Origin: Kineococcus sp. NBC_00420
GTDB taxonomy: Bacteria; Actinomycetota; Actinomycetes; Actinomycetales; Kineococcaceae
Length of the DNA stretch: 64,000 nucleotides
Assembly: GCF_036021035.1 (NCBI RefSeq)
Contig: NZ_CP107930.1
Span: 1,302,001-1,366,000 of the forward strand
Direction: 5' to 3'
Shown here: positions 3,837-7,036 of the stretch, one piece after another
Position numbering within the stretch: position 1 is the stretch's first letter
Layout of the letters: the number at the start of each line of letters is the position of its first letter
Notes under the pieces: generated by a model
Seen by the model: the letters and a program-made list of their open reading frames with translations, nothing else
Database searches by the model: none
Told to the model about the DNA's origin: nothing
Made by a program: the position numbers and the translations under genes

Positions 3837-4205
3837 TCACGCGGCGACGGGGTGCTTGCGGGGACGGCCGCGCGGACGTTTCCGCGGGACGACGACCCCG
3901 GACAGGACGAGCTGGCCGCCCCAGACGCCCCACGGTTCCGAGCGCTCGAGAGCGCCTGCGAGGCAGGCGTTCGCGAGCGGGCAGTCCGCACAGAGCGACT
4001 TGGCGAGTTCGACGTCCTCGGGCTTCTCGGCGAACCAGAGTTCGGAGTCGAAGCGGCGGCAGGGCAGCGGGTCCGGCGTGTGGCGGCGGGTCACGCCGCT
4101 CACCTCCTCCTGGGTCACGGTGACGGATCCGGCGTCACCGGTGGTGCGGATGTTCTGTCGGTTGCCTCGACCCGGTCGGGTCTGCGGGGACTGGTGCACG
4201 GTCAT
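3837..4205 (-). CDS. whiB7: WhiB7 (WblC) iron-sulfur transcriptional regulator
   Basis: The 122-residue product has the four-cysteine [4Fe-4S] cluster pattern of Wbl proteins (Cys49, then CADC at 72-75 and Cys81), the turn EPWGVWGGQ (90-98) that contacts sigma factor, and a C-terminal AT-hook, RGRPRKH (112-118), diagnostic for WhiB7. WhiB7 binds the housekeeping sigma factor region 4 and activates intrinsic antibiotic-resistance genes and itself. The long Gly/Arg-poor N-terminal stretch (1-40) is unusual in length; a later start is possible but no better ribosome site is seen. Its leader carries an upstream ORF and hairpins (see those entries). The neighbour uvrD2 matches the standard actinobacterial arrangement. 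Confidence 0.93.
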   Translation of the reverse strand: MTVHQSPQTRPGRGNRQNIRTTGDAGSVTVTQEEVSGVTRRHTPDPLPCRRFDSELWFAEKPEDVELAKSLCADCPLANACLAGALERSEPWGVWGGQLVLSGVVVPRKRPRGRPRKHPVAA

Positions 4206-4260
4206 CTCTCTGCGTTCTCCGGCGAGTGATTCGGCGTCGAAGAGCCCACGAACGCAAAAT

Positions 4261-4294
4261 GGCCGCGGACCCGAGGTGATCGGGATCCGCGGCC
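4261..4294 (-). terminator. Intrinsic terminator/attenuator in the whiB7 leader
   Basis: Arms 4261-4274 and 4280-4294 form a 14-bp stem with one bulged base and a GGTGA-type loop; on the minus strand it is followed by ATTTTG, a short U-tract. It lies after the upstream ORF stop and about 55 nt before the whiB7 start, in the position where a conditional terminator controls whiB7 in mycobacteria and Streptomyces. Confidence 0.8.
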
Positions 4295-4304
4295 TGAGAG
4301 GTCG

Positions 4305-4324
4305 CCGGTCTGTGGCTAGACCGG
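4305..4324 (-). promoter_or_regulatory. Hairpin overlapping the whiB7 upstream-ORF stop codon
   Basis: On the minus strand CCGGTCT (plus 4318-4324) and AGACCGG (4305-4311) are perfectly complementary around AGCCAC, and the stem contains the TAG stop (4316-4318) of the upstream ORF. A ribosome ending translation there would cover the stem, so stalling or release could change folding of the terminator 10 nt further on. The regulatory role is inferred. Confidence 0.55.
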
Positions 4325-4576
4325 TGGACTCAGAGTCGAGGGTCCCGAGAACGGGAAGGAGGTGCTGCCGTAGGCGGGGGCGACCAGACGCCCGGCCGGG
4401 GACTTCGTGGCCGGGAGCAGACGCACTCCACCCGTGGTCATGCCGCCGGTGGAGGCGTGGCTGCGCTCCCACGAACCGCACTGGGCAGCGATCGGGGAGG
4501 TCTGGCGCGGGCGCACGGCGAAGGCATCGGCGATGACGCCGTTCTGCGCGGTGACCGCGTTCACGATGCTTTCCAT
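4316..4576 (-). CDS. Upstream ORF (86 codons) in the whiB7 leader
   Basis: This ORF starts at an ATG with a strong GAGGAGGG ribosome site 8 nt upstream, inside the predicted whiB7 transcript, and ends in the hairpin just before the terminator. The peptide (MESIVNAVTAQ... ending STLSPPV) is Ser/Thr/Pro/Gly-rich with no recognisable domain; the C-terminal Pro-Pro-Val could slow ribosomes. In known whiB7/wblC leaders, ribosome-targeting drugs stall translation of such an ORF and prevent termination. At 86 codons it is long for a sensor ORF, so part of it may be a free-standing small protein. An in-frame internal ATG (MTTGGVRLL) exists but lacks a good ribosome site. Confidence 0.6.
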   Translation of the reverse strand: MESIVNAVTAQNGVIADAFAVRPRQTSPIAAQCGSWERSHASTGGMTTGGVRLLPATKSPAGRLVAPAYGSTSFPFSGPSTLSPPV

Positions 4577-4638
4577 CGTCCTGCCCTCCTCTACGGTGCG
4601 TTCGCGCGGGACCGTTGCCCCGTGCTGTCGTGCATCTG

Positions 4639-4677
4639 ACTGTAGGGGCACCCGCACCGGGACGACAACGTCTTTTT
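4639..4677 (-). promoter_or_regulatory. WhiB7-type autoregulated promoter
   Basis: On the minus strand there is a -35 TTGTCG (plus 4663-4668), an 18-bp spacer and a -10 TACAGT (plus 4639-4644). Four bases upstream of the -35 lies an A5 run (plus T5 at 4673-4677). An A/T run just upstream of the -35 box is the known WhiB7 AT-hook site, so autoactivation is likely. It would give a leader of about 430 nt before whiB7. Confidence 0.75.
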
Positions 4678-4763
4678 CCGCCGGGTTCCGGACGAGTTCC
4701 GGTGCAATCCTCAACCACCGCCCGATCCGTTGCCGTGCAACGGATCAGTGGATCCCATCGAGG

Positions 4764-6869
4764 TCAGTCGGTGGCGAGGACGGCCAGCACCTCGTCGGCG
4801 TACTTCTCCAGCTTCGACGGCCCGACCCCGGAGATCTTCGCCAACGAGGCGGTGTCCGTGGGCATCGCCTCGCAGATCGCGACGAGCGTGGCGTCGGTGA
4901 ACACCACGTAGGCGGGCACCTCGGCGGCCTTGCACGTCGCGCTGCGCCACTCGCGCAGCCTCTCGAAGACCGCCTCGTCGTAGCTGGACGGGCAGTCGCT
5001 GCAGCGCCCGAGCTTGCGGTCCACCCCGGCGGTGAGCGACGCGCCGCAGACGCGGCAGAGCATGGGCCCGCTGGTGCGCTTGGTCTTCGCGCCCGCCGGC
5101 GTGACCGCACCGCCGCGACGGGCCGTGGGTGCGCCCTGGGGACGGACGGCGTCGAGGAAGCGCGAGGGTTTGCGGGAGGCCCGGCCTCCCGGGGTGCGGG
5201 AGTTGGCCCAGGACAGGTGGATCCCCTCGCGGGCCCGGGTCATCCCGACGTAGAGGAGGCGGCGTTCCTCCTCGATGTCGTCGGGGGTCTCGGCGAACGA
5301 GATCGGCAGCAACCCCTCGCTCACCCCCACCAGGAACACCACGTCCCACTCCAGTCCCTTGGCCGCGTGGAAGGAGGCCAGCGTCACGCCGTCGACCGTC
5401 GGGGCGTGCTGGGCCTGGCTGCGTTCCAGGAGTTCCTCGACGAGGTCGCTGAGTTGCGCACCGGGGCGCTTCTCGGCGAGCTCGTCGGCGAGGACCACCA
5501 ACGCCTGCAACGACTCCCACTTCTCGCGCGTCGCACCACCGGCCGTCGGGGCCTTCTCGCCCCAGCCGGCCGAGGACAGCACCGCACGGGTCTCGGCCCC
5601 GAGGTCGTGGCCGGGCACCGCGGACCGGGCGCCACCGCGCAGCAGCACGATCGCGTCGCGGACCTCCTTGCGGGAGAAGAACCGTTCCCCGCCGCGGACG
5701 ACGTAGCCGACACCGGCGTCGGCGAGCGCCGACTCCAGGGCCTGCGACTGGCCGTTGGTGCGGAAGAGGACCGCGATGTCCTTGGCGCTGCGACCACCGC
5801 GGACCTCGGCGGCGATGCGCGCGGCGACGCCGGCGGCCTCGGCGACGTCGTCGTCGTAGGCGGTGAACGTGGGCGGCGGGCCGGAGGGCCGTTGGGCGAT
5901 GAGCTCGAGGCGGGCCTGGGCGTGCGTGCCGCTGGCCATCGAGAGGACGGAGTTGGCGAGGCCGACGACCTCGGGGGTGGAGCGGTAGTCCCGCACGAGC
6001 CGGACGACCTTGGTGTCGGGGTGGCGCCGGGGGAAGTCGAGCAGGTGCTCGGGGGTGGCCCCGGCGAAGGAGTAGATCGTCTGGCTGGCGTCGCCGACGA
6101 CGCAGAGGTCCTGGCGGCCACCGAGCCAGAGGTCGAGGAGGCGCTGCTGCAGCGGGGAGACGTCCTGGTACTCGTCGACGACGAAGTGCCGGTACTGCTC
6201 ACGGACGGTCGCGGCCACGTCGGGGCGCTCGTCGAGGATGCCGGCGGTCAGCAGCAGGACGTCCTCGAAGTCGATGACGGCCCGGTCGGTCTTGACGTCC
6301 TCGTAGGTGCGCACGAGGCGCGCGACGGTGGCGAGGTCGAGCCCGCCCGGCTCGCCGCGGCCCGCGGCGGCGGCGAGGCGCACGTAGTCGTCGGGGTCGA
6401 CGAGCATGACCTTGGTCCACTCGACCTCGGCGGAGAGGTCGCGCACCCGGGTGCGGTCGGCCTGGATGCGCAGCCGGTTGCAGGCGTCGGCGATGAGCGG
6501 AGCCTTGTGCTCGACCAGGTTCGGCAGCGACCCGCCGATCGACTGCGGCCAGAAGAACTGCAGCTGACGCAGGGCGGCGGCGTGGAAGGTGCGGGCCTGG
6601 ACGCCGGCGACCCCGAGGTCGCGCAGACGGGTCCGCATCTCCCCCGCGGCGCGCGCCGTGAACGTCACGGCCAGCACCCGGTTGGGCACGTAGGCGCCGG
6701 AGTGCACGCCGTAGGCGATGCGGTGGGTGATGGCGCGGGTCTTGCCGGTGCCGGCGCCGGCGAGGACGCAGACGGGGCCGTCGAGCGTGGTCGCGACCTC
6801 GCGCTGCTCGGGGTCGAGCCCGTCGAGGACCGAGTCGGCGCTGGGGCGGAGGTCTGTGCTCGTCGTCAT
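4764..6869 (-). CDS. uvrD2: UvrD2-type ATP-dependent DNA helicase with HRDC domain
   Basis: The 701-residue product (MTTSTDLRPSADSV...) has superfamily 1A helicase motifs: Walker A GAGTGKTRA near residue 40, motif II DEYQDVSPLQQ near 230, motif IV/V region TLASFHAAKGLEWDVVFL and motif VI YVGMTRAREGIHLSW. The C-terminus carries a four-cysteine element (CRVCG...CSDC) and an HRDC domain ending in ISGVGPSKLEKYADEVL, the layout of mycobacterial UvrD2. It unwinds DNA 3'-5' in repair. The ATG at 6869 is favoured; another start 7 codons upstream is possible. whiB7 downstream and mycoredoxin divergent match the M. tuberculosis order. Confidence 0.93.
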   Translation of the reverse strand: MTTSTDLRPSADSVLDGLDPEQREVATTLDGPVCVLAGAGTGKTRAITHRIAYGVHSGAYVPNRVLAVTFTARAAGEMRTRLRDLGVAGVQARTFHAAALRQLQFFWPQSIGGSLPNLVEHKAPLIADACNRLRIQADRTRVRDLSAEVEWTKVMLVDPDDYVRLAAAAGRGEPGGLDLATVARLVRTYEDVKTDRAVIDFEDVLLLTAGILDERPDVAATVREQYRHFVVDEYQDVSPLQQRLLDLWLGGRQDLCVVGDASQTIYSFAGATPEHLLDFPRRHPDTKVVRLVRDYRSTPEVVGLANSVLSMASGTHAQARLELIAQRPSGPPPTFTAYDDDVAEAAGVAARIAAEVRGGRSAKDIAVLFRTNGQSQALESALADAGVGYVVRGGERFFSRKEVRDAIVLLRGGARSAVPGHDLGAETRAVLSSAGWGEKAPTAGGATREKWESLQALVVLADELAEKRPGAQLSDLVEELLERSQAQHAPTVDGVTLASFHAAKGLEWDVVFLVGVSEGLLPISFAETPDDIEEERRLLYVGMTRAREGIHLSWANSRTPGGRASRKPSRFLDAVRPQGAPTARRGGAVTPAGAKTKRTSGPMLCRVCGASLTAGVDRKLGRCSDCPSSYDEAVFERLREWRSATCKAAEVPAYVVFTDATLVAICEAMPTDTASLAKISGVGPSKLEKYADEVLAVLATD

Positions 6870-7036
6870 GGCCCCGGCATCTTCTCCCACCGGACGGGTG
6901 GTCGGTGGCAGGAGGGGCGGCGCGTTGTGGACGACACGCCGTGAGCCGCCTGCGGGAAGATGGCTGTGGATCCCGTGGTTGCACGGGGTGCAGACGATCC
7001 ACAGCCCGGTGGTGACCTGGAGCGAGGAGCAGGACC

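Follow-up and report, generated by a model that had tools for sequence, protein, structure and literature searches.

The whiB7 leader of Kineococcus, a probable ribosome-controlled attenuator with a long uORF and no apparent arrest peptide

In the classical attenuators (trp, his, ilv), the position of the ribosome in a leader ORF chooses between an antiterminator and a terminator, and trp leaders also contain a transcription pause hairpin. The whiB7/wblC genes of Mycobacterium and Streptomyces are reportedly controlled by transcription attenuation mediated by an upstream ORF (uORF), as Lee 2022, Burian 2012 and Burian 2018 are said to have described, and whiB7 is induced by unlike ribosome-targeting drugs as well as by starvation. 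The scheme is recounted in passages of four papers (PMC11550727, PMC10727445, PMC9618640, PMC13393426), one of which has the whiB7 anti-terminator using overlapping uORF and terminator sequences (PMC10727445). Ribosome position in a leader ORF likewise sets antiterminator versus terminator in the ilvB1 leader of M. tuberculosis, according to an excerpt of PMC13236596. For Bacillus subtilis, sections of PMC9226507 describe in the vmlR leader a uORF attenuation of an antibiotic-resistance factor that involves an antiterminator, a terminator and polymerase pausing. For E. coli, a 2025 paper presents the toiL uORF before topAI as one uORF that senses several classes of ribosome-targeting drugs, and calls antibiotic stalling in the whiB7 uORF untested (PMC12121999).

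The window, a stretch of 64,000 nucleotides from a Kineococcus genome of one contig (5.43 Mb), carries on its minus strand, in this order, a helicase gene, a promoter, a uORF, a hairpin on the uORF stop codon, a terminator and whiB7; all features below lie on this strand. The coding sequence that follows the leader (3837..4205, start codon at 4205) specifies 122 amino acids and a stop. The protein has a WhiB domain (Pfam, E 3.5e-14), its nearest PDB chains are WhiB7 (7kif, E 4.9e-27), and it contains an RGRPRK AT-hook; NCBIfam assigned it no family. The gene adjoins a UvrD-HRDC helicase gene (4764..6890), a conserved neighbour. On the Pfam match, the PDB chains, the AT-hook and this neighbour, the downstream gene is whiB7. 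A whiB7 match was present in all 11 Kineococcus genomes searched, the window's own included; in the eleventh, whose whiB7 sits at a contig edge, the model of the antiterminator described below matches near the edge of another contig. A further WhiB7-like gene (E 1e-26 to 3e-23) is present in four Kineococcus genomes (L097, L098, L099 and L100). Scanning L097, L099 and L100 revealed no comparable leader with terminator and uORF before it, and the window's own genome has no second copy in this E range.

Directly 3' of whiB7 lies a small Arg/Ala-rich ORF (67 aa, 3780-3577), which matches no Pfam family and has similar sequences at the corresponding position of some other Kineococcus loci. The interval that separates the helicase gene from the whiB7 promoter contains a perfect 10-bp inverted repeat, GATCCGTTGC-ACG-GCAACGGATC (4746-4724), with counterparts in several other Kineococcus loci; it is perhaps the helicase terminator. 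A search of 2 kb around the leader with 4227 Rfam families returned eight matches, none of them at the family gathering score and none a whiB7 leader.

The Kineococcus leader belongs to the known whiB7/wblC uORF attenuators. It shares with those of Mycobacterium and Streptomyces, as far as the accounts cited above extend, the gene, the uORF, the predicted Rho-independent terminator, the predicted anti-terminator with shared sequence and probably the autoactivated promoter. The switch proposed below matches the scheme set out in the available passages of PMC11550727, PMC10727445, PMC9618640 and PMC13393426. A description of the Kineococcus leader did not turn up in the partly accessible literature that names both whiB7 and Kineococcus. 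The placing of the stop codon at the antiterminator apex, the freedom of the peptide and a box in the middle of the uORF are absent from the portions of the whiB7/wblC accounts examined, although Lee 2022 may contain part of this. The choice by ribosome position is that of the trp, his, ilv and ilvB1 leaders, but no short run of regulatory codons is evident here by eye, and the Kineococcus uORF is long and unconstrained, so that any slow step could count.

For comparison, 189 loci were collected, of which 182 had the WhiB signature, 177 were distinct and 162 had a terminator and a uORF candidate; 150 of these passed the filters, and 147 were distinct. A diverse set was made of 68 of the 147. 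Ten distinct Kineococcus leaders, the window's own among them, were readable. At L091 the automatic step took the wrong hairpin, and this leader was added to the Kineococcus set by hand; L095 lies at a contig edge.

The A5 run noted just upstream of a -35/-10 pair in the original prediction is in place (4677-4673). It forms part of an A-rich box, GAAAAA (4673..4678), a candidate WhiB7 site that precedes the putative -35 (TTGTCG, 4663..4668) and -10 (TACAGT, 4639..4644, spacer of 18 nt), and from the position of the -10 transcription would start near 4632. This promoter block is kept, with single-base changes, in all ten aligned Kineococcus leaders. The tool's promoter consensus scan does not list it, as it has 8 of 12 matches by manual count against a threshold of 9. 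WhiB7-type promoters carry GAAAWY 3 nt before the -35, according to part of PMC7157823; five of these six positions are matched here, and only if the -35 is set one base upstream, which makes the match a partial one. Further on, the Shine-Dalgarno site of the uORF (AGGAGG, 4585..4590) has an equivalent in every one of the ten readable Kineococcus leaders. Among the 68 diverse leaders, the uORF start region was the strongest shared motif (log-likelihood 387, versus 87 to 101 in four shuffled sets searched with fewer seeds and iterations).

The uORF (4316..4576) runs for 86 codons from an ATG at 4576 to Ser-Pro-Pro-Val-TAG, with the stop at 4318-4316. The ORF had been correctly described with its strong ribosome site and its Pro-Pro-Val end, but it had also been judged much longer than expected, and this does not hold: 86 codons is the median of the 147 distinct leaders (quartiles 67 and 104). 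Since uORF starts were chosen by Shine-Dalgarno score (range 14 to 189 codons), single lengths can be wrong. The frame is kept in all ten Kineococcus leaders, where the distance from start to stop takes six different values (195 to 270 nt), each a multiple of three, with no in-frame stop in between. In Kineococcus (n=10 each) the uORF had an uncorrected pN/pS of 1.31, the helicase C-terminus one of 0.47 and WhiB7 one of 0.18, and in Streptomyces the values were 0.85 (n=26), 0.44 (n=21) and 0.09 (n=27), respectively; alignment errors in so variable a uORF inflate both pN and pS, and the contrast weighs more than the absolute value. Two stretches of the Kineococcus uORF, one in the centre around TGGVR and the other at its end, combined low pN with low pS (nine leaders), as expected of constraint at the nucleotide level. 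Judged from these comparisons, the uORF peptide is not conserved, and the uORF probably measures the progress of the ribosome and not a peptide sequence.

A strong hairpin in the middle of the uORF (CUCCACC/GGUGGAG, 4464-4417) was also seen in Kineococcus; its sequence is nearly invariant, and covariation is uninformative about it either way. Reinitiation or coupling from the uORF to whiB7 was considered and rejected, the uORF stop and the whiB7 start being separated by 110 nt that include the terminator.

The stop hairpin (4305..4324) has a perfect 7-bp stem, CCGGTCT (4324-4318) with AGACCGG (4311-4305), so placed that the T of the stop codon is in the stem and its AG in the loop. Ten nt past it comes a 14-bp hairpin with a one-base bulge (4261..4294, -28.3 kcal/mol), then ATTTTG (T 4259-4256) and whiB7; similar stems are found in relatives, and the element is a predicted Rho-independent terminator between uORF and whiB7. 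Both hairpins had been located accurately. The terminator consensus scan of the tool leaves this one unlisted, with four T in the tail versus five required. Directly 3' of the terminator, a block TGCGTTCGTGGGCTCT (4256-4241) is kept in the ten aligned Kineococcus leaders. The description of the stop hairpin has to be corrected in one respect: it is part of a larger helix, which overlaps the terminator. This predicted antiterminator (4280..4348, -33.9 kcal/mol) extends from the uORF end to the terminator 5' arm and shares sequence with both: in its outer helix, UCGGGA.CC of the uORF pairs with the terminator 5' arm, its middle helix is CUGAG/CUCAG, and its tip is the stop hairpin.

For the Kineococcus leader of the window, the whole-leader folding z was -4.1. 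Among the 147 leaders, at least eight pairs with the terminator 5' arm could form in 138 (44.4% of shuffles), and the stop was bridged by at least five pairs in 140; both features occurred together in 131 of the 147 versus 28.8% of shuffles, a result that is independent of the covariance model. The mean energy z of the antiterminator was -3.24, and it was still -2.59 when only the uORF part was shuffled, with 101 of the 147 leaders below -2. The stop hairpin alone was less distinctive (130/147 versus 65.2% of shuffles), the mean z of the local hairpin being only -1.43, and the mycobacterial stop hairpins look weak.

The antiterminator pairs also covary. In the training family of 11 leaders (ten from Kineococcus and one from a sister genus), pairing occurs in 90.5% of antiterminator cells, slid controls reaching 25 to 52%, and two-sided changes affect 5 of 23 pairs versus 1.5 in shuffles, with 1 shuffle of 500 as high. 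Outside this family, 118 leaders remained after omitting most Streptomyces, and on 100 of these sources the covariance model of the 11 leaders was run (E up to 0.1). Seventy matches were obtained, of which 51 were the sense-strand leader; the 19 others were excluded from the covariation test, and 49 sources had no usable sense-strand match. In the 51 leaders from other genera, 85.4% of antiterminator cells pair, and 16 of the 23 pairs show two-sided changes, in 67 cells versus 17.3 (sd 3.5) for shuffles, none of 500 being as high, in a test that uses a structure-fitted alignment and shuffles that take no account of relatedness.

Applied to 99 whole genomes of the order, the antiterminator model gave 26 match rows in 17 genomes; since the hairpin is almost a palindrome, both strands are represented. 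Twenty-three rows lie just upstream of whiB7, two lie at a contig edge, both of them in the genome that also has its whiB7 at such an edge, and one lies elsewhere. Seven of the 17 genomes are from the training family, and outside this family 13 of 14 rows are at whiB7. WhiB7 matches were found in 82 of 149 genomes of the order, and with stricter filters the antiterminator model in 17 of 99; the model is therefore specific but misses many leaders. The sole match away from whiB7 and from contig edges is G051:C1:824596-824668 (E 0.0029). Frame, stems and promoter are thus conserved in relatives, with compensated pairs, and the original reading of the locus as a whiB7 attenuation leader holds.

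In the folding model, the antiterminator, with 11 or 12 pairs to the terminator arm, stays intact until the leading edge of the ribosome is about 36 nt from the stop; at 21 nt two of these pairs are left, and at 6 nt all of them are gone. Assuming a leading edge about 15 nt ahead of the P site, stalls in approximately the first 70 codons would leave the antiterminator intact. Of the two hairpins, the antiterminator is the stronger, but the full-length RNA at equilibrium favours terminator plus stop hairpin at every ribosome position tried and also without a ribosome (mean pair probability 0.95 to 0.98). The antiterminator would thus have to fold first, and the switch would depend on which hairpin is transcribed first. 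The idea that ribosome behaviour at the stop codon decides the terminator is retained as regards control by the ribosome, but the folding model places the decision better at the passage of about codon 70.

We infer the following sequence of events. RNA polymerase would start near 4632 and a ribosome would load on the uORF. During healthy translation, a ribosome following closely would open the last 35 nt or so of the uORF together with the stop hairpin; with the antiterminator opened, the terminator (4294-4261) could fold and transcription would stop. If the ribosome is inhibited or starved anywhere in approximately the first 70 codons, the uORF end would be left free, the stop-codon hairpin would nucleate the long antiterminator, and this would capture the terminator 5' arm before the 3' arm is made, allowing read-through into whiB7. 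WhiB7 would then activate its own promoter. The equilibrium preference for the terminator, its short T tract and the partial GAAAWY match of the A-rich box speak against the switch, as do the leaders missed by the antiterminator model and the weak look of the mycobacterial stop hairpins. Taken together, we hold with considerable confidence that the leader is a ribosome-controlled transcription attenuator of whiB7, in which the uORF serves as a length of track without an arrest peptide.

Other accounts of the uORF and of its stop hairpin were considered. The nascent uORF peptide, perhaps through its Pro-Pro-Val end, might stall the ribosome when a drug is present, the position of the stall setting the fold. 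Endings indeed recur: PPV closes 41 of the 147 uORFs, the penultimate residue is Pro in 85, and WSPPV is frequent. But this ending lies in the covarying helix, and the recurrent Trp-Ser-Pro-Pro-Val is accounted for by RNA pairing, TGGAG with CTCCA and CCGGTC with GACCGG, both sides of which change in step in other leaders. The Pro-Pro-Val end accordingly reflects RNA pairing and not selection on the peptide. Moreover, the conserved nascent-peptide residues expected of an arrest-peptide leader were not found in Kineococcus, given its uORF pN/pS, the Streptomyces value is also high, and in the folding model a ribosome stalled on the last codons would disrupt the antiterminator and promote termination. 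We regard an arrest-peptide sensor as very improbable. A functional small protein as the product of the uORF, with a terminator that is simply its own, would agree with the good ribosome site and the conserved frame; yet there is no amino-acid constraint, no Pfam family, a single NCBIfam match far under its cut-off (16.2 of 200 bits) and no other gene belonging to this terminator, and we find this account scarcely credible. Both were rejected on the pN/pS and the Pfam and NCBIfam results.

The stop hairpin could instead act mainly as a transcription pause hairpin, or as an obstacle to ribosome release, the outer pairing being incidental. Its bridging of the stop in nearly all leaders and its compatibility with the terminator in the full fold agree with such a role. 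The outer and middle helices covary as well, however, and pairing with the terminator 5' arm exceeds that of shuffles by far, which makes this an unlikely main function. It is compatible with the antiterminator, and both could apply to the same hairpin.

Besides the attenuator itself, a box was found in the middle of the uORF. De novo motif search in the 68 diverse leaders, uORF start and end excluded, returned TCCAGGGGAGCGGTCTGCCC with a log-likelihood of 217 from random seeds, versus 99 to 115 in six shuffled sets run with fewer seeds and iterations. The pattern GG.{6}T[CG][CT]G[CT]C is present in 31 of the 68 leaders. Dinucleotide shuffles gave 5.7 (max 13), synonymous codon permutations 12.0 (max 17) and the opposite strand 2; in a larger set 71 of 145 leaders have the pattern, and the corresponding numbers are 12.7, 23.4 and 15. 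Its median distance from the start codon is about 105 nt (31 leaders), and each of the three frames is represented (15, 6 and 13 sites), the -3 T falling at codon positions 3, 2 and 1 (16, 10 and 6 sites; background T 14%, 22% and 10% in the same uORFs). With each column left out in turn, from a matrix trained on the same leaders and lacking only the tested column, the expected base was found for G-11 in 31/40, G-10 in 33/35, T-3 in 32/32, Y-1 in 35/35 and G+1 in 34/35 sites, while the -2 column was split between G (15/37) and C (19/37).

The extended consensus pause of RNA polymerase is given in part of PMC6062546 as G-11G-10T-3G-2Y-1G+1. The box copy in the window, CACGGGTGGAGTGCGTCTGC (4436-4417), matches all six positions and is a candidate pause site, with its -1 base at 4423 and +1 at 4422. 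Other observations fit less well. The columns -8 (A/T, 32/34) and +3 (C, 33/37) are strong yet outside the pause consensus, the strict GGN6TGYG is not enriched (19 of 68 leaders versus 11.9 in shuffles, max 21), and neither is G-10Y-1G+1 alone, which every leader contains by chance. In cross-validation with 60 random seeds, four of eight training halves missed the box, their test halves having 1 to 4 of 34 leaders above the 95% line of codon shuffles; for the other four, 13 to 18 of 34 exceeded this line, where 1.7 would be expected, and 6 to 14 exceeded the corresponding line of synonymous permutations. With a matrix made from Kineococcus-type copies, no more than 23 of the 147 leaders scored above the top 1% of shuffles. 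The window's own genome has one match to the box pattern with up to two mismatches, and likewise one to a reversed control pattern. Pairing of the box with nine leader regions (31 or 32 leaders each) was not detected (mean z -0.47 to +0.59), and a wider motif search over 46 nt was swamped by codon periodicity. Because the register relative to the pause consensus was set only once the motif was known, we offer the pause reading as a proposal.

Such a pause has a precedent in the vmlR leader, for which no homology is claimed: there, by the relevant sections of PMC9226507, a three-codon uORF goes with a NusG-dependent TTNTTT pause, whereas Kineococcus has 86 codons and a box of the G-10/Y-1/G+1 type. 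The literature searched, as far as its texts were accessible, yielded no report of a pause in a whiB7 uORF. Some 140 nt into the uORF, the box may pause the polymerase and let the ribosome catch up. We put forward tentatively, with somewhat more doubt than conviction, that whiB7/wblC uORFs of many Actinobacteria contain a frame-independent pause site acting at the nucleotide level, at which the ribosome catches the polymerase, so that the leader is a general sensor of transcription-translation coupling. If this is true, the rest of the uORF would be a race track, and any lag of the ribosome behind the polymerase, whatever its cause, would switch whiB7 on; the leader would sense coupling rather than particular drugs or codons.

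The analysis yields a searchable antiterminator model for whiB7 leaders. In toiL, as described in the available part of PMC12121999, the ribosome stalls at the start codon or further downstream depending on the drug, whereas for Kineococcus we propose that what counts is how far the ribosome has advanced along a long uORF. How one uORF senses many translation stresses, a question raised in passages of the same paper (PMC12121999), is brought into sharper focus by the build of the antiterminator, the unconstrained peptide and the box. A free peptide, a constrained RNA end and a pause-like box in the middle would together predict broad sensing through lost coupling, and not through a specific arrest.
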